DNA of 24,269 bases. Origin: a virus. Positions 2,101-24,269 of the stretch are shown here, in pieces. Each line of letters begins with the position of its first letter. Within the stretch, counting starts at the first letter, position 1. The position numbers and the translations under genes were made by a program. Location: the IMG/VR virus record IMGVR_UViG_3300034068_000074, positions 1 to 24,269 of that record. One strand, written 5' to 3'. A model generated the notes under the pieces. It had not been told where the DNA came from. It ran no database searches and saw only the letters and a program-made list of their open reading frames with translations.

Positions 2101-2571
2101 TTGCAGCCCAGGCATAGGTCAAATAGGCTAAATGGACAACCAATTTCAGGCCGTGGTATAACGGCGGCTATGTTTCGGTCACTACCACTGGCTATCCGAC
2201 CTAAAGTTCAGGCGACAGAGGCGCGTCTGGACGCCATATACAAAGCTGCATCTATGGGTTTAAAAGGGGATTCACTAGCACTGGCGTCTGGGATGCTGCC
2301 TTTAGAGTACCGACAATTGTGCCAATTTGACCCATTGGCCGAACTAGCGGCGCAGAAGGGCAAGGCGGACAACGAGCTGCGCGCAGCGCAGAGACTGAAC
2401 GAGGCGTCTGAAGGCGGCGACGCCAAGGCCAGCCTGGCGATACTCCAACACCTTCACGGCTGGACGGCCCGGCAGGAGATTAGTGTGGACGTCTATCAGA
2501 AGATCAGCGTCATCACGGCGCTTGAACAAGCCCGCGCGAGGGTGATCGAGGGGACGGTGGTAGATGGCTGA
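2101..2571 (+). CDS. terS: terminase small subunit
   Basis: 156 residues from TTG at 2101, which has AGGTAAG 8 bases upstream. An in-frame ATG at 2170 would give 133 residues and removes a poorly structured basic N-terminus. The small subunit recognises phage DNA and presents it to the motor. Residues about 40-75 form helices compatible with a helix-turn-helix (DAIYKAASMGLKGDSLALAS). The segment DAKASLAILQHLHGWT (107-122) is the pattern seen in many small terminases, a helix ending in a GW turn, followed by a helical oligomerisation tail. It overlaps the next gene by 8 bases, with large terminase one gene further on. Identification rests on this pattern and position; sequence divergence in this family is high. 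Confidence 0.7.
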   Translation: MQPRHRSNRLNGQPISGRGITAAMFRSLPLAIRPKVQATEARLDAIYKAASMGLKGDSLALASGMLPLEYRQLCQFDPLAELAAQKGKADNELRAAQRLNEASEGGDAKASLAILQHLHGWTARQEISVDVYQKISVITALEQARARVIEGTVVDG

Positions 2572-3466
2572 TAACAAGCTGGCACCCCAAAGCAAGAACA
2601 AGCTGCCATGGTATGAACAAGCGTTACCAATGGAGGGTCGCGCAACCTTTCTGCCCTTTCAAGACACGCTGCCGGGGTCAGTGATGAACCAGCGCAGCTT
2701 TGCGTTGCCCGGCGTTGTTGCCGGTGCTGTCAACGCAATCACCGCACCGGGGCGGGCCTACAGCGGCAGCGATCCGACCTTTAACCCCGAGGAAGAAGCG
2801 GCGAACTTTGCCATGAACGTAATGGGTGGCGGGGTGGGTGCGTCAAGGGCAGCACCCGCGCCTGCGGGTTCGTTGGGGATGAACGCATTTCATCGCACAG
2901 GTATTCCTTTTGAGGGTGCTTTTGAGCGTAACCGCCCTCAATCGCAGGCTTCGTTTTCAGGGCCAGAAGGTTTTTATTTTTCCCGGCACTCTAAAGACCC
3001 AACTACGGGCGTTTTTGGCCGCCATGTTATTCAAGCGGATGTTAAAGTTACAAAACCCGCGCCGGTATCACAAGTGTTTATTGGGCCTGGCAATATACCT
3101 ACCCCCCGCGCGGTGCTTCCGGTTACGCCCGTATGGGCTGCATTAAACAAGATAGATCCGGCACAGGGTGGGTATGTAATTGCGGATAGCGCGGCGGATG
3201 CAATAGCAGGCAAAAAAGCGCCGCGCTCAAATACTTACGCTGAATACGAACAACAGTTTTATACCGCGTTAATAAACAAAAAATTATTTAAGTTAGTGAA
3301 CCCAGAGGTATTAGAACCCTCCGACGTGTCTTTGCTTAAGTTGTATGGTTATGACGGTTTTGAATACAAACGCCCGCAAAACGCTACTTCTAGTATGCCA
3401 TCTCAGATTGTTGCGCTTGACCCCGAACAAATTGTTCGCAAAGCCGCTTGGACTGAGCCTAGGTAA
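2564..3466 (+). CDS. ADP-ribosyltransferase-like protein inserted between terminase subunits
   Basis: 300 residues, starting inside the end of the small terminase gene and ending TAATG with large terminase. Residues 1-105 are low-complexity, with a hydrophobic Ala/Gly stretch (ALPGVVAGAVNAITAPGRAY) like N-termini of virion-associated phage proteins. Residues 106-295 look like an ADP-ribosyltransferase of the polyvalent-protein or MuF type: AFHRTG (H110) as first strand, GFYFSRH (Y138) as second, GYDGFEYKR near 262-270, and SQIVALDPEQIV (Q281) at the end, where the catalytic Glu/Gln strand is expected. Such enzymes transfer ADP-ribose from NAD to host proteins or nucleic acids. From about 2890 the DNA shifts to T-rich, TTT/TTA-using codons, unlike the first 100 codons, which suggests a transplanted C-terminal domain. 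Catalytic activity is inferred, not shown. Confidence 0.65.
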   Translation: MADNKLAPQSKNKLPWYEQALPMEGRATFLPFQDTLPGSVMNQRSFALPGVVAGAVNAITAPGRAYSGSDPTFNPEEEAANFAMNVMGGGVGASRAAPAPAGSLGMNAFHRTGIPFEGAFERNRPQSQASFSGPEGFYFSRHSKDPTTGVFGRHVIQADVKVTKPAPVSQVFIGPGNIPTPRAVLPVTPVWAALNKIDPAQGGYVIADSAADAIAGKKAPRSNTYAEYEQQFYTALINKKLFKLVNPEVLEPSDVSLLKLYGYDGFEYKRPQNATSSMPSQIVALDPEQIVRKAAWTEPR

Positions 3467-15350: not shown

Positions 15351-17587
15351 TGGCCGAACTTAACATCACCAATATCCCCGCGCCTCGGGTGCCGCTTATT
15401 GACGAGCGCACTGGCCTTATGGCGCGGGAATGGTATCGGTTTTTCCAAAATATATTTATTCTGACCGGCAGCGGCAGCAACGCAACCACGCTCGACGAAT
15501 TGCAATTAGGGCCACCCGTTCAAACTAACAGCGGCACAGTAACTAGCGTTACCGGCACACCCCCGGTTGTATCCTCCGGCGGCAATGCGCCGGTAATCAG
15601 TATGCCAGCGGCCACTACGTCAGTCGACGGGTATCTGACCAGCACCGACTGGAATACCTTTAACAACAAGGGCACCGTTTCAAGCGTGTCTGTTGTGTCG
15701 GCCAACGGTCTTGCCGGAACGGTAGCAACAGCAACAACTACGCCGGCGGTTACGCTTTCAACAACCGTTACCGGGGTGCTGAAAGGCAACGGCACTGCAA
15801 TCAGCGCAGCCACCAGCGGCACTGACTACGCGCCAGCGACTAGCGGCACTTCGATCTTGTATGGCAACGGCGCGGGTGGTTTTTCTAACGTCACCATAGG
15901 AACTGGCGTTGCTTTTACCACCGGGACGCTATCTGCTACAGGTTTGGGCGGCAATGTGGTTGGCCCGGCCAGTGCAACGGATAACGCAATTTCACGGTTT
16001 GACAGCACAACCGGAAAGCTAATCCAGAATTCAGTTACCACCATAGATGACACCGGCGCGGCTACGGGATTTACAACATTTGCGGCTTCTACTAGCGTTA
16101 CTACGCCTACAGTCCAAGCATCAAACTCTGCTGGCTTATCGCTTAAAAATGCATCAGGAACAACCCAAATTAATACGGGGGCTGGTGGTGGTGATAATGT
16201 TTCAATTAATGTTTCTACAAATTTAAACGGCGTAAACGCACAAATAGACATTAGCCCTACTGGAACTGGTCATGTTCACATAAAACCTAGCGGCACAGGT
16301 TCGATTGAAATTGCGCCTACAAATGTAGGAACAATTGACAACATGACCATTGGGGCAACAGCACCTAAAAATGGTAGTTTTGTAGATTTAAGTGTAACTG
16401 GAACACTTAGTTTTGATGCGGCGCAAGGAACAGCGGGGCAAGTTTTAACATCGGCTGGATCGGGCGCAACGCCGACTTGGACAACGCCGACCACTGGCAC
16501 CGTCACCAGTGTGGCTGCGTTGACGCTTGGCACCAGCGGCACCGACCTGACCAGCACCGTGGCAAACGGCACGACCACGCCGGTTATCACACTTCAAGTG
16601 CCCACCGCTTCCGCGTCTAATCGTGGGGCGTTAAGTTCGACCGACTGGAGTACGTTTAACAATAAAGGCAGCGGTAGCGTTACCAGCGTAGCGCAGTCCT
16701 TTACCGGCGGCTTGATTTCGGTTGCTGGCTCACCGATAACAACCAGCGGCACCTTGGCGTTGACCGTAGCTGGCACCAGCGGCGGCGTGCCTTACTTTTC
16801 TAGCGCGTCAACCTGGGCAACATCAGCGGCTCTTGCGGCCAGCGCGCTGGTTATCGGCGGTGGCGCTGGGGCAGCTCCAGCCACAACCACAACGGGGACA
16901 GGCGTAGTTACCGCACTTGGCGTTAATACTGGAACAGCAGGGGCGTTTGTAGTCAACGGTGGTGCGCTAGGCACACCGTCTAGCGGAACCGTTACCAACC
17001 TGACCGGCACAGCGTCGATAAATATCAACGGCACCGTAGGGGCAACAACAGCTAATACAGGTAAGTTTACCAGTGCAGCATTTCCGGGTACAACTTCCGG
17101 CACTGCAACCGTTGCGGCAACGGCTGTTGCGGGAACGCCGACGCTGACACTGCCGACTACTACGGGAACACTTTCTATAAATGGCCCGGCGTTTAGCGCG
17201 TATCAAAGTACGTCAACAGCCGTTACTACTTCAACAGTAACCAAGGTTCTTTTTGACGTAGAGTTATTCGATACCAATAGCAACTTCGCATCGTCTAGGT
17301 TTACGCCTACGGTAGAGGGCTATTATCAAGTAAACGCAAGGACTGGACTCAGTTCTTCAGTTCTTACTAGAGGCGTAGCACTAATACGTAAAAATGGCGT
17401 AACCGTTAATTCTATGGAAGATACCAATGGCGCAACCGCGTATTCTTCGATTGGCAGCGCACTGATATACATGAACGGGTCTACTGATTACTTAGAAATT
17501 TATATTTTTCTTGCTGGCGCTACCACAATATATGACGGTGGTGCGGCGCTCACTTGGTTTCAGGCAGCTATGGTAAGGGGCGCGTAA
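15350..17587 (+). CDS. long tail fibre or needle-position protein with C1q-like tip
   Basis: 745 residues, mostly Thr, Ser, Gly and Ala. The N-terminus NITNIPAPRVPLIDERTGLM followed by AREWYRFFQN (5-35) is a common virion-anchoring start. The shaft carries repeats: TDWNTFNNKG at 99-108 and TDWSTFNNKG at 431-440, GTVTSV at 62-67 and 383-388, and GTAGQVLTSAGSG (360-372), shared with the collar fibre. Residues about 613-745 have the strand pattern of a C1q/TNF-like jelly roll (FTPTVEGYYQVNARTGL; ALIRKNGVTVNS; YSSIGSALIYMNGSTDYLEI), a trimeric tip used by many fibres. P22 has its tail needle gp26 at this position. The length and tip suggest a receptor-binding or tail-plugging fibre instead. Confidence 0.8.
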   Translation: MAELNITNIPAPRVPLIDERTGLMAREWYRFFQNIFILTGSGSNATTLDELQLGPPVQTNSGTVTSVTGTPPVVSSGGNAPVISMPAATTSVDGYLTSTDWNTFNNKGTVSSVSVVSANGLAGTVATATTTPAVTLSTTVTGVLKGNGTAISAATSGTDYAPATSGTSILYGNGAGGFSNVTIGTGVAFTTGTLSATGLGGNVVGPASATDNAISRFDSTTGKLIQNSVTTIDDTGAATGFTTFAASTSVTTPTVQASNSAGLSLKNASGTTQINTGAGGGDNVSINVSTNLNGVNAQIDISPTGTGHVHIKPSGTGSIEIAPTNVGTIDNMTIGATAPKNGSFVDLSVTGTLSFDAAQGTAGQVLTSAGSGATPTWTTPTTGTVTSVAALTLGTSGTDLTSTVANGTTTPVITLQVPTASASNRGALSSTDWSTFNNKGSGSVTSVAQSFTGGLISVAGSPITTSGTLALTVAGTSGGVPYFSSASTWATSAALAASALVIGGGAGAAPATTTTGTGVVTALGVNTGTAGAFVVNGGALGTPSSGTVTNLTGTASININGTVGATTANTGKFTSAAFPGTTSGTATVAATAVAGTPTLTLPTTTGTLSINGPAFSAYQSTSTAVTTSTVTKVLFDVELFDTNSNFASSRFTPTVEGYYQVNARTGLSSSVLTRGVALIRKNGVTVNSMEDTNGATAYSSIGSALIYMNGSTDYLEIYIFLAGATTIYDGGAALTWFQAAMVRGA

Positions 17588-17751
17588 TGAACCTATACGA
17601 CAAAATAATTGCTCTGTATCCTGAACTCGCTACTTACGACTTTGCGTTTGGCGCAATAGCCCTTCGCAATGATTCTGATGGCAAGGGTGACTACATAGAG
17701 AAGTGGGAACATCCCACCCTGCCGCGCCCCACAAACGAACAATTAGAGTAA
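17587..17751 (+). CDS. XkdW-like small protein
   Basis: 54 residues from ATG 17587, whose A is the last base of the upstream stop (TAATG). Sequence MNLYDKIIALYPELATYDFA, then a YIEKWEHPTLPRPTNEQLE end. The pattern of a short N-terminal helix with YPE, a central strand, and a W-x(n)-PT-x-EQL end is that of XkdW-type proteins encoded directly after tail fibres in many phages; their function is unknown. The short insert NDSDGKGDY may be a loop. Position after the fibre gene suggests a fibre accessory or assembly factor, but that is inference. Confidence 0.75.
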   Translation: MNLYDKIIALYPELATYDFAFGAIALRNDSDGKGDYIEKWEHPTLPRPTNEQLE

Positions 17752-17754
17752 CCC

Positions 17755-18090
17755 ATGACCGTAACCGTAAAAGTGCTGATACCGGCCAAAACCGCAGAAG
17801 CCAGCCAAACCACGCAATACACTGCGTCAAACGTCACCACGATTATCGACAAGTTTACGGCGACCAACTACAGCGCCAGTTCCGCAACCTTGAGCGTCAA
17901 TCTGGTTACCTCGGGCGACACTTCGGGCAACCAGAACCTGATTACCAAGACCAAGACGCTTGCGCCAGCAGAGGTATATACTTTCCCCGAGATTGTCGGC
18001 CAGGTGCTGATGGCAAGCGGGTTTATCTCCACCATTGCCGGGACGGCCACGGCCATCAACATTCGTGCTTCAGGGCGGGAGGTTAGCTAG
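17755..18090 (+). CDS. beta-rich structural-type protein
   Basis: 111 residues, starting 3 bases after the XkdW-like gene. It begins MTVTVKVLIPAKTAEASQTT and is composed of alternating polar and hydrophobic residues with many Thr and Ser (SASSATLSVNLVTSGDTSG), ending IRASGREVS. It looks like a single immunoglobulin-like or jelly-roll domain and resembles in style the protein at 7967-8239. The stop overlaps the GTG of the hydroxylase gene. It is probably a minor virion or fibre-associated protein; no named family is recognised. Confidence 0.7.
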   Translation: MTVTVKVLIPAKTAEASQTTQYTASNVTTIIDKFTATNYSASSATLSVNLVTSGDTSGNQNLITKTKTLAPAEVYTFPEIVGQVLMASGFISTIAGTATAINIRASGREVS

Positions 18091-18632
18091 TGCGGCACTT
18101 TTGTAAGCTAGCGGGTAATGTAGATGTCATGCCGTCATTGCGTGAACTGGCGGTAAATAGCCATTTATGGAACCAAAACTCTTTACGCACTACGCACCCC
18201 AACAGCCCGCATACGCAAGTTGACGATATATGGTTATGGTTTAACAAGTTACAGCAGGACGTAGCCGCAACGATTGATGACATACAAACTTACCCATACC
18301 CAGCTTGGCAAAGCCTGTTAGGGCTGCGCGGGATTGTCTTGGATTTAATACGCCGCGTAGACGGCGTTCAATTGGGCCGGTGCATGGTAACTCGTATGCG
18401 TCCCGGCGCTACGATAACGCCGCATAAAGACGAGGGCACACCCGCTACGTTTTACACTCGGTATCAAATAGTTTTACAAAGCCTTCCCGGCGCGTTATTT
18501 ACTATAGGGGACGAAACCGTAAATTTTCAATCCGGCGATATTTGGTGGATTAACAACCGGGAAACACATTCGGTAATAAATAACAGCGGCGAAGATAGAC
18601 TTGTATGTATTGTTGATATTAAAAGCGCGTAA
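18090..18632 (+). CDS. aspartyl/asparaginyl beta-hydroxylase-like Fe(II)/2-oxoglutarate oxygenase
   Basis: 180 residues from GTG overlapping the previous stop (TAGTG). The C-terminal half is a cupin-type beta barrel with the metal triad HKD at 112-114 (H112, D114) and a distal His in NNRETH (H160), followed by R170, the expected 2-oxoglutarate contact. RYQIVLQSLPGALFTIGDET and NFQSGDIWWINNRETHSV match the Asp_Arg_Hydrox family. Members hydroxylate Asp/Asn side chains in proteins or act on small substrates. The N-terminal 80 residues are Trp-rich and less conserved. It is followed, with TAATG overlap, by an acetyltransferase gene; both use TTA/GCG-rich codons unlike the portal and terminase. 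The substrate is unknown; a virion or host protein is possible. Confidence 0.8.
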   Translation: MRHFCKLAGNVDVMPSLRELAVNSHLWNQNSLRTTHPNSPHTQVDDIWLWFNKLQQDVAATIDDIQTYPYPAWQSLLGLRGIVLDLIRRVDGVQLGRCMVTRMRPGATITPHKDEGTPATFYTRYQIVLQSLPGALFTIGDETVNFQSGDIWWINNRETHSVINNSGEDRLVCIVDIKSA

Positions 18633-19087
18633 TGATAACTGCCCAAATTGAACCTTGGCCAGCATTTATACATGAAGCGCAACCGCTTCTTCCGTTGCAT
18701 TGGGCGGAGTTAGCGTTAAACAAGGACAAGGTGCCGTTAGACCCGCAATACGATGTATACGCGGCTAGAGACACGGCGGGGCAAGTGCTAGTGGTAACTT
18801 TGCGCCAAGATGGTGAATTAGTAGGCTACTTTATAGGCTTTATAGCGCCGGGTTTGCACTATAAAACTTGTCTTACGTTAACAATGGATATTTTTTGGAC
18901 GCACCCTTCAATACGTAACGGGTTTGCGGGCGTTAAACTTTTTAGGCTTGTTGAAAAAGAAGCAAAACGTCGGGGTGTTCAACGCATGTTTTTTGGGTCT
19001 AAATTACACAAAGACGCGTCTAAACTATTTGAATTTTTAAAAATGCAGGCTACGGAAATTTATTATTCTAAGTGGCTAGGAGATTAA
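18632..19087 (+). CDS. GNAT-family acetyltransferase
   Basis: 151 residues. The ATG overlaps the hydroxylase stop (TAATG). Fold features in order: an N-terminal helix, strands with VLVVTLRQDGELVGYFIGFI (52-71), the strand TLTMDIFWTHPSIR, and the acetyl-CoA pyrophosphate loop R95-N-G-F-A-G100 leading into helix VKLFRLVEKEAKRRG. A final strand-helix part ends TEIYYSKWLGD. Very similar GNAT proteins ending in YxKWLG occur in tail or ejection modules of many podoviruses; their substrates are not known. It is probably an N-acetyltransferase acting on a protein or small amine. Coupling to the hydroxylase suggests a shared target. It sits 1 base ahead of the ejection genes. Confidence 0.85.
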   Translation: MITAQIEPWPAFIHEAQPLLPLHWAELALNKDKVPLDPQYDVYAARDTAGQVLVVTLRQDGELVGYFIGFIAPGLHYKTCLTLTMDIFWTHPSIRNGFAGVKLFRLVEKEAKRRGVQRMFFGSKLHKDASKLFEFLKMQATEIYYSKWLGD

Positions 19088-19088
19088 C

Positions 19089-19850
19089 ATGGTTGCAGCC
19101 GCAGTTATCGGTAGCGCAGTAGTAGGCGGTGTAATGTCCTCAGACGCGGCAGGCGATGCAGCCGAAGCCTCGGGGCGAGCATCAGATGCGTCCGTTGGGG
19201 AGCAGCGCCGGCAGTACGACATTAGCCGCGCAGACCAGGCGCCATACCTTGCGGCTGGCACTGGCGCGGTCAATCGGCTAGGCGCGGGCGTAGCGGCAGG
19301 GGGCGAGTTCGGCGCAACTATGCCGTTCGATTTCCGATACGACCAAAACACTGACCCCGGCTACGCGTTTCGTTTTTCCGAAGGCATGAAAGGGTTGGAA
19401 CGGAGCGCGGCGGCTAGGGGCGGCCTGCTATCGGGCGCTACGCTCAAGGGCGTAACACGCTACGGGCAGGACATGGGCAGCCAAGAATACCAAAACGCTT
19501 TTAGCCGCTATCTGACCGGCTTCAACGCCAGAACGGGCGAGCGCAACCAGCTCTACAACCGTTTAGCTGGCGTGGCGGGAACAGGTCAAACGGCCACTAA
19601 CCAGATCGGCGCGCAAGGTGCGAACATGGCGAGTAACATCGGCAACGCCTACATGAACAACGCGGCCAACCAAGGCAACGCAGCGATGGCGGCAGCGGGG
19701 ATACGTACTTCAGCCTTTGGCGGGGCGGCCAATGCGCTGGGCCGGATGTACGGTGGTAGGGGGTTCGCAAACCCCAATGCAGATTTTGATGCCTATAACG
19801 CCACGCCGTATCAAAACGATCCAATTTACGCAATGAGCGGGGGAGGTTAG
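19089..19850 (+). CDS. ejection protein 1 (P22 gp7-position DNA transfer protein)
   Basis: 253 residues. It begins MVAAAVIGSAVVGGVMSSDA, a hydrophobic Ala/Val/Gly stretch able to insert in membrane. Then QRRQYDISRADQAPYLAAGT, an FDFRYDQNTDPGYAFRFSEG block, SAAARGGLLSGATLKGVTRYG and GSQEYQNAFSRYLTGFNAR follow. I recognise this set of motifs from podovirus DNA transfer/ejection proteins encoded after the tail genes. The C-terminal third is Asn/Ala/Gly-rich. These proteins are packaged in the head and injected to build a channel for DNA entry in Gram-negative hosts. The three consecutive genes here mirror P22 genes 7, 20 and 16. Start ATG 19089 has AGGAG about 8 bases upstream, inside the preceding gene. 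Confidence 0.85.
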   Translation: MVAAAVIGSAVVGGVMSSDAAGDAAEASGRASDASVGEQRRQYDISRADQAPYLAAGTGAVNRLGAGVAAGGEFGATMPFDFRYDQNTDPGYAFRFSEGMKGLERSAAARGGLLSGATLKGVTRYGQDMGSQEYQNAFSRYLTGFNARTGERNQLYNRLAGVAGTGQTATNQIGAQGANMASNIGNAYMNNAANQGNAAMAAAGIRTSAFGGAANALGRMYGGRGFANPNADFDAYNATPYQNDPIYAMSGGG

Positions 19851-19855
19851 TAATC

Positions 19856-21109
19856 ATGGCTGAACTTAATTTTGGACTACTGACCCCGCCTGGCTCGCAA
19901 AACATAGGCAACGCGTTTGTGCAGGGCATGGATCAGGCGGCGGTGGCTAGGGCGCAAGAGAACCAGAACGCGCTGTCTCAGTACGCCTTGAGCAAAGCGA
20001 GGCGCGAGGACGAGCTTACCAATCAGATGTTGGCCGGTATGCAAGGTGCCGACACAATCGAAAAACAAGCCGACGTGTTACGCAGAGGCGGTAGATATAA
20101 AGAGGCAAACGAGCTTATAAACGCCGGTTTAGACCGCCAAATTAAACAAGGGACGCTAGCCGCGCAGCCCGGCACGGCGGCACGCGTTGCGGTTCAAACG
20201 GCAAGAGACAGACAAACGTTTGAAGGCCAAGCTATACGCGATTTAAGAATTAACCCCTCGGACGACAACATACGCGCGTTGGGGCAAGATGCCGTAATCA
20301 AAGGCATTTACACCCAAGACCAAGCAGATCAAAAGGTAGCGGAGTTTTTAGCTATACCTTTGGATCAGCGCGTCGCTAGGTTTAGCCAGTATGGCGCACC
20401 TGCGGTTGTGCCGCGTCAGCCTAACTTGGCGGCAGACTTGTTAATTCCAGGCCCGGACGGCACGCTGGTTCCTAATACGGCGCTGGTAGGAGTAAAAACG
20501 CGATTGGCGCGTGAAAGCCGTCCACCGCGTCCAGAGGCAGCGCCCCGCACGCAGCAAGTAACGATGAGCGACGGCACGCTGGGGATTATGAACATGGATA
20601 CCGGCGCAATTACGCCTAGTACTTTAGGTGGCGCACCAGTTAAAGGTAAACCCTCCGCGTTTGCTGAAAAGACTGCTGCACAGCAAAAACAATTAGGTAA
20701 AGACCTTGAGTTTGCAATTACTCAATTAACTGCCGTTACAAAAGACGGCGGTTTGATTGACCAATCTACGGGTAGCGGGGTGGGGCAACTTATAGACGCT
20801 GCGGCGGCTTTTGGTGGTAAAGCTATGCCCGGCGCAATTGCCGCAGGAAAACTCAAGCCAATTGCAGACTTAGCATTAAAATTAATTCCTCGGTTTGAAG
20901 GGCCACAATCTAACGCGGATACAAAGTCGTACAAGGAAGCCTCAGGTCAATTAGCTGATACTTCGCTGCCAAACCAAATTAGAAAAGAAGCAGGTAGAGT
21001 TGTTCTTGGTCTAGTGCAAGCGCGCAAAAATCAATTTGTAACTAGCGATATGGTTACCGAAGGCGCGCCGGCTGCAGGGGGGGTGGTTGACTTTGGGAGT
21101 TTAAAATAA
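19856..21109 (+). CDS. ejection protein 2 (P22 gp20 position)
   Basis: 417 residues, 5 bases after the first ejection protein, with TTAGTAATC leading to ATG. The N-terminus (GNAFVQGMDQAAVARAQENQ, QYALSKARREDEL) is helical and typical of internal virion proteins. Residues 60-130 are amphipathic helices. The centre (VTMSDGTLGIMNMDTGAITP) is a short beta unit also seen in other ejection proteins. The C-terminal 150 residues are helical, with SLPNQIRKEAGRVVLGLVQARKN cut from a longer helix. After about 20080 codons shift to TTA and GCG, so the gene may be a mosaic. The role as a component of the DNA ejection channel is inferred from order and composition. Confidence 0.75.
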   Translation: MAELNFGLLTPPGSQNIGNAFVQGMDQAAVARAQENQNALSQYALSKARREDELTNQMLAGMQGADTIEKQADVLRRGGRYKEANELINAGLDRQIKQGTLAAQPGTAARVAVQTARDRQTFEGQAIRDLRINPSDDNIRALGQDAVIKGIYTQDQADQKVAEFLAIPLDQRVARFSQYGAPAVVPRQPNLAADLLIPGPDGTLVPNTALVGVKTRLARESRPPRPEAAPRTQQVTMSDGTLGIMNMDTGAITPSTLGGAPVKGKPSAFAEKTAAQQKQLGKDLEFAITQLTAVTKDGGLIDQSTGSGVGQLIDAAAAFGGKAMPGAIAAGKLKPIADLALKLIPRFEGPQSNADTKSYKEASGQLADTSLPNQIRKEAGRVVLGLVQARKNQFVTSDMVTEGAPAAGGVVDFGSLK

Positions 21110-23394
21110 TGGATGTTCGCCTTCCTGACGGAACAATCATACAAAATGTGCCTGACGGCATAAGCAAAGCTGACTTAACTGCCAAGCTAAAAAACAACGG
21201 TTACGACGTAACTAAATTAGACGCTGCGCCGCCCGTTAGCCCAATATCCGCGCCACGGGGAGAAATTCCGGCGTGGGCGCAAAAATACCCAACACTGTAC
21301 GGTATTGCTGGCGCAACGCGGGAGACACTTGGCCCGTTACTAGAGATGGGCGGCATGATCGGCGGGGGTATAGCCGGCGGCGCAGCCGGAACCTTTGGCG
21401 CGGGGCCGGTAGGAACTGTTGCGGGCGGCGTAACCGGCGCGGGTTTGGGCTACAGTAGCGCCAAAGAAATCAATCGTCTAGCCGATATCGCTTTGGGTAA
21501 CATACCAGCACAAGCAGAAGGCGCGGTGCCTGCTATGCAGCGTGCGGCGGGTAACGTGGTTGAAGGCGCGGCAATGGAAACAGGCGGGCGGCTATTAGCG
21601 CCCGTAATAGCCGCCATCCCTCGCGTATTAGCCGGCGGTAAAGAAATAATTAACCGTTTGCGCGACCCTAAAGCGGCGGCTGTAGTAGACGCGGTAGAAG
21701 GCAGGGGTAAAGACATAGTTAACGCGTTGCGTTCGCCAACAGCGGTCATTGTGCCTGGAAGCGCGCCTACGCCGGGGGAAATTGCGGCCCCCGTAGGATC
21801 GACAAAATTTTCTGCGTTTGTTGAAAAATATAAACCTCAAAACGCGTCAGAATTTAGGGCTATGGAAGCGCAAACCGACGCGGCGCGGTTAGCGCAACAA
21901 GCCCGCGATACAAGTCGTTTTGCAACGGCAGCTAACAAAGCGCAAACTAAAATTGAAGCGGGGTTAACCGATGTAAGCCCCCGCGAGATTGGCGACGCAC
22001 TTATTAAGACAGCTAAAGAAGAACGAAAAACGGTAAAAACCACCGTTATTCAGCCGGCGTATAACCAAGCATTTAACGCAGCAGGTAACACTAAGATTGA
22101 CGTAAGCAATGTGGTTGCCAACGCAGAAAAAATCTTGGATCGTAAGTTGTCGGATTTTGCGCCCGAGACTACGCCCAATACCGTTCGTCAACTTCTAGGT
22201 TTTATACCCAAAGAACAGCCCACAGGCCCAGTGATATTAAGCGTGCAAGGTAAGCCGCTGACCACACCGGAAGTATTACCCGCTCAAGCGACGTTGCGGC
22301 AACTGGACGACGTACGAAAGGCCATAAACGCGGACATTGCGGCGGCAAAAAATTCTACCGCGCCGACGTCCGATATGACGTTGCGTAACCTGTATAAGTT
22401 ACACGACGAGATCGACGCTGCGGTAACCGGCAGCACTACGCTACCCGCGCAAGCAAAACAACTTTACGCAGATGCGTTGGCAAAATACCGCGCCGATTAC
22501 GTCCCGCGTTTTAAAACGGGCATTAACGCCAATTTGTTTAAACAAACCGCGTTAAACGAGCCAAAGCTAAATGCTGACGACGTAGTAAGCAAGTTTTTTC
22601 AGCCTAAAGGCGAACGCGAAGCGTCACAGTTTGTAACTTTGTTTGGGAAAAACCCCGACGCTATGCTATTGCAACGAACGGGCGTAGAGGATTTATACCG
22701 GCAAAAAGTGGTAGACGCGGTGACCGGCGAAATATCACTGGCTAAACACGCGGCGTTTATGCGTGATTACGCTCGTCCGTTAGACATTATGGACGCAGCG
22801 GGAATGAATCTTAAAACGCGGCTTGACGTTATACGAGCAGACGCGGCGCGTTTAGTCAAAATACAAGAAATGGCTGCTGCGAATAACATTAAATTACGTG
22901 ACCCGCTTCCTGCGGGCGCAAATGCTGACGCGGTGGCGCGGCGTGTGCAAGAGTTAACCAAAGGGTTATCGCCTCGACAATTAGCGGACGTGTCTGCGGT
23001 AGCCCGCGATATTGCACGCGAAAATGAATACTACATCTTAGCAGCCGCAGGAGGTGTAACTAAAGGCGGATCAAAATTAGCAACGGGGGAATTAAAAAAT
23101 ATTGGTATCCCTACCACGGCGCTATTGTCACGCGGCGTAGCTATTTTTAACTCTGTGGTTAAAAAATTATCCGGCAAAATTGACGAGAAACTGGCTACGG
23201 AGTTAGGCAGGGAATTATCTAATCCTGCGGTAACTGCAAATCTCATAGAAAAATCACTGGCTACAATGAAACCCCCACCCGGACGTGCATTGCGGGCAAC
23301 CCAACTAGTCTCGGATTCGGTTCGTCCCGGTATGGGCGCCGCAATAAACGCATTGCGCGGGGACGAAGAAAACCAAAACAACTTAGCCAGGTAG
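21109..23394 (+). CDS. ejection protein 3, large (P22 gp16 position)
   Basis: 761 residues; start by TAATG overlap. It begins MDVRLPDGTIIQNVPDGISK and ADLTAKLKNNGYD, a small N-terminal unit frequent in phage internal virion proteins. Residues 76-114 are an almost uncharged Gly/Ala segment (MGGMIGGGIAGGAAGTFGAG and on), a glycine-zipper able to form membrane helices. The rest is mostly helical with repeated charged heptads, as expected for a long channel-forming protein (P22 gp16 has 609 residues). No lytic transglycosylase motif was seen. Codon use is TTA/GCG-rich throughout. Ejection into the host envelope is inferred from position, size and the zipper. Confidence 0.8.
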   Translation: MDVRLPDGTIIQNVPDGISKADLTAKLKNNGYDVTKLDAAPPVSPISAPRGEIPAWAQKYPTLYGIAGATRETLGPLLEMGGMIGGGIAGGAAGTFGAGPVGTVAGGVTGAGLGYSSAKEINRLADIALGNIPAQAEGAVPAMQRAAGNVVEGAAMETGGRLLAPVIAAIPRVLAGGKEIINRLRDPKAAAVVDAVEGRGKDIVNALRSPTAVIVPGSAPTPGEIAAPVGSTKFSAFVEKYKPQNASEFRAMEAQTDAARLAQQARDTSRFATAANKAQTKIEAGLTDVSPREIGDALIKTAKEERKTVKTTVIQPAYNQAFNAAGNTKIDVSNVVANAEKILDRKLSDFAPETTPNTVRQLLGFIPKEQPTGPVILSVQGKPLTTPEVLPAQATLRQLDDVRKAINADIAAAKNSTAPTSDMTLRNLYKLHDEIDAAVTGSTTLPAQAKQLYADALAKYRADYVPRFKTGINANLFKQTALNEPKLNADDVVSKFFQPKGEREASQFVTLFGKNPDAMLLQRTGVEDLYRQKVVDAVTGEISLAKHAAFMRDYARPLDIMDAAGMNLKTRLDVIRADAARLVKIQEMAAANNIKLRDPLPAGANADAVARRVQELTKGLSPRQLADVSAVARDIARENEYYILAAAGGVTKGGSKLATGELKNIGIPTTALLSRGVAIFNSVVKKLSGKIDEKLATELGRELSNPAVTANLIEKSLATMKPPPGRALRATQLVSDSVRPGMGAAINALRGDEENQNNLAR

Positions 23395-23401
23395 CTAAAA
23401 C

Positions 23402-23635
23402 ATGGAAAACCAGCAAGTAATTAACGTGTTTCTTGGCGTCGGCATGACTGTCGTGGGCTGGTTTGCTAGAGAACTGTGGGCTGCGGTCAAGGAACTGAAA
23501 GCCGACTTAGCAAAGCTGCGCGAGGACTTGCCGAAAGAGTACGTTGCAAGAGACGATTACCGAGAGGACATACGGGAAATCAAAGCAATGCTGGCGAAGA
23601 TATTTGAAAAACTTGAAGGCAAGGCCGACAAATGA
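23402..23635 (+). CDS. membrane-anchored coiled-coil protein, holin/XhlA-like
   Basis: 77 residues. It begins MENQQVINVFLGVGMTVVGW with one hydrophobic helix (residues 7-28), then a charged coiled coil (ELKADLAKLREDLPKEYVAR; DDYREDIREIKAMLAKIFEK). Short proteins with this layout and a conserved YVxRDDYRxDIxEIKxML block are common at the end of phage structural modules, near lysis genes. XhlA-type hemolysins and holin partners look similar, but membership is unproven. The start is 7 bases after the ejection gene with no strong Shine-Dalgarno. The stop overlaps the 9-codon ORF that follows. Confidence 0.75.
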   Translation: MENQQVINVFLGVGMTVVGWFARELWAAVKELKADLAKLREDLPKEYVARDDYREDIREIKAMLAKIFEKLEGKADK

Positions 23636-23661
23636 AAAAACTACTTATGTTGGCTGCTTAA
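23632..23661 (+). CDS. 9-codon ORF (MKKLLMLAA), leader peptide or gene remnant
   Basis: ATG overlaps the previous stop (ATGA) and the TAA ends one base before the next ATG. The peptide MKKLLMLAA is exactly how many signal peptides and lipoprotein leaders begin. It may be a truncated exported-protein gene, such as a spanin, or a coupling ORF that carries ribosomes to the next start. Too short to prove. Confidence 0.3.
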   Translation: MKKLLMLAA

Positions 23662-23662
23662 T

Positions 23663-24269
23663 ATGGCCGTGAGAAAACCAAAAGTAGCGGTAAAAGCGGT
23701 TCAGCAGGAAAGCCCTGTTGACAAGGTTATTGGCTTGATTAAATGGGTTGATAACCCGTTTAAGTTGTTTACGCTTTTGGTTATCTCTACATTTTTCTTT
23801 GTCGGTTTCTTTGCTTGGGAAAGCAGGGAAGTTTTAAAGTCTGCAATTACCGCTAATGACAAGTTGGCTTCTCTAAAGTCTGATTCCGAATTGATGGATA
23901 TATCCAGTGCGCTAATCAAAGAATCTGGCGGCGAAGTTGCTGTGGTTCACCAAGCCAATCTGATGATTAACAAAAGAACTACCGTAATGGCCGTAGACAA
24001 GAACGGCAGGAATAAGTCGGTCGAAGGAACTGTCACCAGCATCTTTAACGAAAGCCCCGGCAGGAACAAGGCCGTTGTTGCAATGTTAAGCGGTGAAGTT
24101 CTTTGCGAGGACTTCAAGCCTTCCTCAAAGGTGGGTGAGTGGTTTGTGAAGAACGAAGTGACGTTTGTATGCCGTGGTTCAATACCGCCTGAGATTGGCA
24201 AATTGGTTGGCTATATCAGTGTTGGTTTCAAGAAAAAGCCTGATGATGTAAATTCAATGAAGGTAATAC
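23663..24269 (+). CDS. single-pass membrane protein, C-terminus outside window
   Basis: Open from ATG 23663 to the window edge, 202 residues without a stop. The basic N-terminus MAVRKPKVAVKAV is followed by KWVDNPFKLFTLLVISTFFF and one transmembrane helix (residues 34-52), suggesting an N-inside orientation. The large soluble part that follows contains ALIKESGGEVAVVHQANLMI, NKRTTVMAVDKNGRN, GEWFVKNEVTFVCRGSIPPE and LVGYISVGFKKKP. The alternating strands and the terminal IGxIxVG-like pattern recall a GAF-like sensor fold, which is only an impression. I have seen similar NPFKL membrane proteins in other phages, uncharacterised. Proximity to a holin-like gene suggests the lysis region, without proof. 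Confidence 0.75.
   Translation, partial: MAVRKPKVAVKAVQQESPVDKVIGLIKWVDNPFKLFTLLVISTFFFVGFFAWESREVLKSAITANDKLASLKSDSELMDISSALIKESGGEVAVVHQANLMINKRTTVMAVDKNGRNKSVEGTVTSIFNESPGRNKAVVAMLSGEVLCEDFKPSSKVGEWFVKNEVTFVCRGSIPPEIGKLVGYISVGFKKKPDDVNSMKVI

Follow-up and report, generated by a model that had tools for sequence, protein, structure and literature searches.

We found that a gene encoding a predicted Fe(II)/2-oxoglutarate hydroxylase (HYD) and a gene encoding a GNAT-fold protein stand side by side among the late genes of a short-tailed phage. The pairing is more than chance, and the functional coupling of the two genes is well supported: they are kept adjacent in many related short-tailed phages and also in some phages with another gene order, so the two proteins very probably work together. 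Both families are known. The module of a late podovirus GNAT with a coupled HYD is apparently undescribed: in the text covered by a full-text literature search, which had most subscription journals and preprints outside its scope, we did not find the two treated as a pair. GNAT-fold proteins beside podovirus ejection genes recur, and a HYD genetically tied to such a GNAT gives a concrete handle on them, with a defined chemistry (+16, perhaps +42 Da). Cultured carriers exist (PfAn1 on Pseudomonas fluorescens, DC33 on Limnohabitans), as do natural near-identical sequences with and without HYD.

The two genes and their neighbours in the window

The window, which means the whole stretch of DNA that was analysed, is a virus record of 24,269 bases. 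Pfam and PHROG scans of its ORFs showed P22-type structural genes: terminase, P22-like portal, P22-type coat, Phage_stabilise head-closure protein and putative ejection block. The genes around the pair are listed in Table 1.

Table 1. Genes around the hydroxylase-GNAT pair in the window.
Feature	Position	Strand	Basis or remark
XkdW-like ORF	17554-17751		upstream of the 111-aa ORF
111-aa protein, function unassigned	17755-18090	+	stop overlaps HYD start by one base
Fe(II)/2-oxoglutarate hydroxylase (HYD), Asp_Arg_Hydrox family, 180 aa	18090-18632	+	PF05118, motif, model
GNAT-fold protein, 151 aa	18632-19087	+	PF00583, PHROG 1249, model
P22 gp7-like DNA ejection protein	19089-19850	+	PHROG 598 'DNA ejection', E 1.2e-40; directly after GNAT
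Second protein of putative ejection block (gp20 position)	19856-21109	+	position; PHROG 33352, unknown function
Third large protein of putative ejection block (gp16 position)	21109-23394	+	position

The 111-aa ORF is also preceded by a 745-aa ORF. Its product matched no Pfam family (E up to 1) and no PHROG (E up to 0.1), and a relative of it precedes HYD in many loci and precedes GNAT in loci without HYD. A first-pass annotation of this DNA had placed the pair between the tail and ejection modules. The gp7-like gene downstream agrees with the ejection side, but the adjacent upstream 111-aa protein is not a recognised tail protein. The third large protein of the putative ejection block showed a weak match to PHROG 167, tape measure (E 1.9e-4).

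HYD starts with GTG behind a GGGAGG, and the first base of the gene is the last base of the preceding stop codon. The one-base overlap of HYD with GNAT that had been noted at first was confirmed as TAATG, so that one-base overlaps occur at both ends of HYD. Between 17400 and 19300 the numbers of sigma-70-like promoters (3 vs 2.1) and terminators (1 vs 2.4) were near those expected by chance. The G+C content falls to 0.44 across part of the pair (18501-19000); because it is lower still at 23501-24000, we make no claim of a recent import of the pair.

HYD matched the Asp_Arg_Hydrox profile PF05118 with 51 bits (cut-off 22.6; E 1.8e-13), and H112-x-D114, H160 and R170 were invariant in 21/21 aligned sequences including that of the window, which bears out the intact H-x-D...H site first reported. 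In this family the H-x-D...H residues are the iron ligands and the downstream Arg binds 2-oxoglutarate. The AlphaFold2 model (pLDDT 93.2, pTM 0.89) was nearest to the nucleoside-antibiotic hydroxylase 7v4m (Z 16.1, rmsd 2.9, 152 residues), followed by proline 3-hydroxylase type II (1e5r, Z 15.5), L-proline cis-4-hydroxylase (4p7w, 15.2) and human AspH (5apa, 14.3). HYD is therefore like the Asp/Asn beta-hydroxylase family in predicted fold, in H-x-D...H and in the downstream Arg, but differs from its relatives in having just 180 aa and in forming a phage subfamily coupled to GNAT. Among these solved fold neighbours are enzymes of free amino acids, of nucleosides and of proteins, and they do not decide between a protein and a small-molecule substrate. 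The PHROG families matched by HYD are named 'unknown function'. Asparaginyl beta-hydroxylases are mentioned in the available text of a cyanophage study (PMC3037559).

The GNAT protein matched PF00583 with 25.5 bits (cut-off 20.7; E 1.8e-5) and the acetyltransferase family PHROG 1249 (E 3.6e-7). Its AlphaFold2 model (pLDDT 90.1, pTM 0.86) aligned over the full length with GNAT enzymes; the best was 1z4e (Z 15.5, rmsd 2.8, 142 residues), with many others tied, and the neighbours included ribosomal-protein acetyltransferases (7n1l, Z 15.4; RimI 2cnm, Z 13.8) as well as polyamine and aminoglycoside acetyltransferases. The acetyl-CoA loop motif of GNATs is R/Q-x-x-G-x-G/A. In the window the loop R95-N-G-F-A-G100 keeps the Arg and the last Gly, and the middle Gly is replaced; among 22 GNAT sequences the complete motif was present in four, that of the window not being one of them, and the last G/A in 21. 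Thus the protein has the same full-length fold as GNAT acetyltransferases but only part of the loop, and acetyl transfer is plausible but not assured. Both genes are under purifying selection: in the 10 of 12 pairs of relatives with unsaturated dS, dN/dS was 0.04-0.16 (HYD) and 0.03-0.12 (GNAT).

Distribution of the pair in viruses and bacteria

Scanning viral contigs with the HYD alignment, we obtained 233 relatives and retained the best 80. HYD was present in 80/80 and GNAT in 79/80 of these; the only contig lacking GNAT ends inside HYD, and in another the GNAT is cut by the contig end. In all 74 of these contigs with room, a gp7-like gene follows GNAT directly. The HYD stop overlapped the nearest in-frame GNAT start by one base in 63 of 79 contigs and by 4 or 7 bases in five, and in 11 the start lay one base beyond; since the stop overlaps or abuts the start, translation of the two genes is probably coupled. 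The corresponding scan with GNAT gave 175 relatives, and among the best 80 of them 67 had HYD and 13 had not, the next gene after GNAT being gp7-like in 76/76 with room. Many contigs occur in both the HYD- and the GNAT-selected set, and the two are not independent of each other; 62 distinct GNATs are found among the loci used for the first tree. The pair is thus real, selected and co-inherited, but HYD is not universal.

A second genomic position was found in Limnohabitans phage DC33, where ORF8 and ORF7 are homologous to the pair of the window but lie between the large terminase (PHROG 2, E 4.2e-35) and a head-tail connector (PHROG 332 'head-tail adaptor', E 1.5e-179), which we read as a portal-type protein. 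The available text of the DC33 report describes ORF8 as an Asp/Asn beta-hydroxylase, listed under metabolic potential, and ORF7 as an N-acyltransferase domain with a remark on antibiotic resistance; the two were annotated separately there, without being connected (PMC12195039). The whole DC33 record holds a single GNAT match of this family. A scan with DC33 HYD gave 33 viral contigs with the order TerL-HYD-GNAT-small ORF-connector. GNAT directly follows HYD in 32 of them, and the last one ends inside HYD. A terminase precedes the pair in 31 of the contigs and a connector comes after it in 31; the remaining contigs do not include the sequence concerned. The pair is also present in L310 and L312-L314, whose terminase is very different (E 4e-11 to 1e-14). 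The active site and the Arg were found in 29 of the 33 HYD sequences by a strict pattern and in three more by a looser one; one ends before the Arg. Single-sequence searches with the gp7, gp20, gp16, gp10, adaptor, 111-aa and 745-aa ORF products of the window gave no match in the DC33-type loci, nor in two stretches of DC33 that make up all but about 11.5 kb of it. This slot without window-type neighbours indicates that the pair, and not its surroundings, is the conserved unit. The DC33 record (PQ492659, of which the stretch L281 is 25000-39048) also has a gene of about 9.4 kb, and its taxonomy line reads Inoviridae, although the genome measures 39 kb and encodes a terminase and a head-tail connector.

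In bacterial and archaeal species genomes, a one-pattern scan, which was not exhaustive, gave nine contigs with relatives. The pair was present on six of them (HYD identity 35-58%), namely in Janthinobacterium sp. S3T4, Massilia sp. Root133, Paraburkholderia rhynchosiae and three MAG contigs; the remaining three had partial, weaker relatives without GNAT. Under a strict rule, four of the six pair-bearing contigs have a gp7-like gene directly after GNAT. In Massilia a gp7-like gene comes after the pair, which is itself preceded by a short ORF and by primase and helicase genes; in Janthinobacterium the structural gene behind the pair is another one (PHROG 8003). When the Janthinobacterium GNAT served as query, eight viral contigs were found, one apparently being the same element; five have HYD and three (32% identical) do not. 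Among 399 genomes from the order to which the Paraburkholderia contig belongs, a survey at E up to 1e-20 gave a single one, the contig's own genome. The two genes are thus not rarely together elsewhere in the HYD-selected, DC33-type and bacterial contigs, although such rarity had been named in advance by the first-pass annotation as the result that would speak against its proposal. The same annotation had suggested fibre proteins as a target. This is not supported, since the pair follows primase and helicase genes in Massilia and the terminase in DC33-type phages; fibres are not shared neighbours of the pair, which makes them unlikely clients.

The HYD of the window matched 8 of 50,697 phage records, five of these matches being P-HM2 (twice), BUCT-ZZ01 and Itty13 (twice). 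PfAn1 (HYD identity 34%) has the order HYD-GNAT-ejection gene and one GNAT match of this family in its whole record. In MW202665, HYD stands directly before an ejection gene (PHROG 21132), and the entire 40.6 kb record gave no GNAT match. GNAT of this family was also not detected in the stretches of P-HM2, BUCT-ZZ01 and Itty13, nor in those of S-SM2 and marine virus AG-345-E15, which were found with DC33 HYD as query.

GNAT without hydroxylase, and the descent of the two genes

T7 gene 13 and P22 gene 14 stand where the GNAT does, immediately ahead of the first gene for an internal virion or ejection protein. P22 gp14 (DUF2824, PF11039) is likewise 151 aa long and directly upstream of gp7, as is the GNAT of the window; T7 gp13 (PF11090) has the same gene position. 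Both DUF2824 and T7 gp13 are, we assume, placed in the acetyltransferase clan of Pfam, and Pfam describes T7 gp13 as a probable scaffold. No HYD is annotated in the T7 and P22 stretches examined. The GNAT of the window had no match to PF11090 or PF11039 (E up to 1), and PF11039 was found in 0/274 genomes. Profile comparison by hhalign gave a probability of 0.1% for T7 gp13 and of 0.3-0.4% for P22 gp14, the P22 profile being very shallow (Neff 1.6). Homology to either protein was thus detected neither by BLASTP nor by hhalign nor by Pfam scans, including a reverse scan with P22 gp14, T7 gp13 and five relatives (E up to 10); in view of the shallow P22 profile, GNAT and gp14 may still be distantly homologous. 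The GNAT occupies the place of a gp13-like factor, without detectable membership of the gp13 family.

A similar position has been noted before. In the available text of the cobavirus study (PMC6775973), the GNAT of roseophage SIO1 (pc40) is proposed as a possible counterpart of T7 gp13, and the authors cite a suggestion of a function in virion morphogenesis. Phage JG068 has a GNAT-like gp29 shortly before the portal gp32, according to the part of its report that was available (PMC3765740), and the available part of PMC8954989 names no GNAT or acetyltransferase. In five Zobellviridae stretches we identified GNAT genes downstream of genes for tail tubular protein B, head closure or the adaptor region. 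Behind these GNAT genes come a protein that is coil-containing or hypothetical and a very large gene, together read by us as the ejection block. In MW202796 the GNAT follows a stabilisation protein, and in MW202640 it lies between terminase and connector. No HYD was detected in any of these Zobellviridae, MW202796 and MW202640 stretches. ORFs at 1617-3212 of L160 and 5526-7421 of L088 match PHROG 511 'internal virion protein'; the latter also matches a head-closure family, which suggests mixed annotation of PHROG 511.

Exchange of the pair could be followed in close relatives. Across HYD and GNAT, loci L062 and L066 are 95-100% identical. Identity in the upstream gene is 83-85%, rising to 96% over the final 100 bases, and successive bins of gp7 give 72-94%. 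The two genes of the pair have dS values of 0.062 and 0.049, compared with 0.42 for the upstream gene and 0.55 for gp7. We read this sequence pattern as exchange of the pair as a block. Among 12 locus pairs profiled for identity, a clear HYD-GNAT block appeared only in L062 versus L066 and the near-copy L072; a mild rise over the pair was seen in window/L001, L010/L024 and L036/L048, and none in L032/L071 or L017/L030.

Presence of HYD has also changed. L084 with HYD and L077 without it are 95.6% identical over 3276 bases before the missing HYD and 95.0% over 439 bases after it. In a quick GNAT tree, five distinct sequences without HYD need one change (support 77) and sit among sequences with HYD, which makes loss of HYD likely. 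In a wider GNAT tree (27 rows with HYD, nine without) HYD presence changes four times, the bootstrap range being 3-5 with five long rows dropped. The HYD clade of PfAn1, Massilia, Paraburkholderia, Janthinobacterium and relatives was rejected on the GNAT data (p-AU 0.0005, with long branches present), so in at least one group the GNATs differ in descent though the pairing stayed. For L157, the test of a GNAT exchange did not reach significance (p-AU 0.138), and correlations of gene distances were uninformative, being similar for all ten gene pairs (Pearson 0.73-0.93).

Marker residues for a target of HYD were compared between 24 chosen loci with HYD and all 13 without (L057, L058, L060, L063, L067, L074-L080 and L082). 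No residue tracked the presence of HYD in the upstream protein, gp7, gp20, gp16 or gp10, the comparison for gp20 and gp16 including 5 and 5 sequences with HYD. GNAT residue 25 is Q in 13/13 loci without HYD, E in 23/24 with HYD, and A in the window. One residue of the head-tail adaptor is F in 6/6 loci without HYD and L in 14/15 with it. Both patterns probably rest on one evolutionary event.

Possible roles of the pair

The explanation that we prefer, at a probability of roughly 40%, is a two-gene late module of short-tailed phages, in which an optional HYD and a core late GNAT serve one late phage client. The GNAT would be the long-standing core, mostly in the T7 gene 13 or P22 gene 14 slot before the ejection genes, and HYD its optional partner. 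Both proteins might act on the same late client, be it the GNAT itself or some protein from the head-connector-ejection assembly; HYD would hydroxylate a side chain of this client, and GNAT would acetylate or chaperone it. In certain conditions only, this might tune how particles assemble or how DNA is delivered. The steps from being kept together to sharing a client, and from the fold to acetylation, are ones that we infer. Modification of ejection proteins, as first suggested, is possible but not general: its specific link to the pair is weakened by the DC33-type slot between terminase and connector, where either the client lies elsewhere in the head-connector-ejection assembly or gene position is no marker of the client. 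MW202665, with HYD beside an ejection gene and no GNAT, counts against the module reading. If the client is a virion protein, phage particles would undergo an oxygen-dependent modification, of which we know no example.

The pair might instead be directed at the host, modifying a host protein late in infection (e.g. of the translation machinery) and so raising late protein yield or blocking defence. Ribosomal oxygenases and Rim-type acetyltransferases are cellular precedents, and such acetyltransferases are among the fold neighbours of GNAT, but these neighbours are generic for GNATs. Host-takeover genes are often dispensable, as HYD is in one lineage, and phages whose neighbouring structural genes are unrelated still keep the pair. 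Against this, it lies among late structural genes in the window, in PfAn1, in DC33-type phages and in close relatives, and a PADLOC search with the two window and two DC33 proteins matched 0 families (E up to 0.01). We regard a host target as unlikely, though worth keeping in view.

A chemistry of small molecules or nucleic acids seems improbable to us. Here the substrate of HYD would be a DNA base, a nucleoside or a free amino acid, and GNAT would acetylate the product, for example in late DNA modification or detoxification. The top HYD neighbour 7v4m, with the proline 3- and cis-4-hydroxylases within 1 Z unit of it, fits such a role, as do the polyamine and aminoglycoside acetyltransferases near GNAT, and the DC33-type site beside the terminase would suit modification before packaging. 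But the protein hydroxylase AspH is not far below in Z, no accompanying pathway gene was recognised among the scanned ORFs of the window, which is part of a genome, and the PADLOC result speaks against this role too.

It is similarly doubtful that the two genes share no chemistry at all, with GNAT a catalytically idle morphogenesis factor like T7 gp13 and HYD an unrelated hitchhiking accessory gene. The acetyl-CoA loop off the full pattern in 18/22 sequences, the GNATs without HYD in similar slots of Zobellviridae and MW202640, and the probable scaffold role of T7 gp13 would agree with it. The pairing would not: in the loci examined, HYD of this subfamily hardly ever lacks GNAT beside it (MW202665 is the one clear exception, and two contigs end early), and the pairing persists across two separate slots and across GNATs that differ in descent.

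A stricter form of the preferred two-gene module, in which a complex of HYD and GNAT first hydroxylates one head-connector-ejection client and afterwards acetylates it, as an oxygen- and 2-oxoglutarate-dependent control of maturation or delivery switched by gain and loss of HYD, appears very doubtful.

Some other ORFs of the window are unusual in place or content. A Collar-domain ORF (PF07484, 8246-9136) and an ORF with an endosialidase-chaperone domain (Peptidase_S74, PF13884, 9144-10397) both lie between the portal and scaffold/coat genes, at a distance from the other tail-region genes. Immediately before the large terminase, a 300-aa ORF (2564-3466) has a weak below-cut-off match (E 0.008) to ART-PolyVal, the ADP-ribosyltransferase of polyvalent proteins. 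The ORF at 1429-2091 shows weak below-cut-off matches to NUMOD4 and PD-(D/E)XK endonuclease, and is perhaps homing-endonuclease-like.
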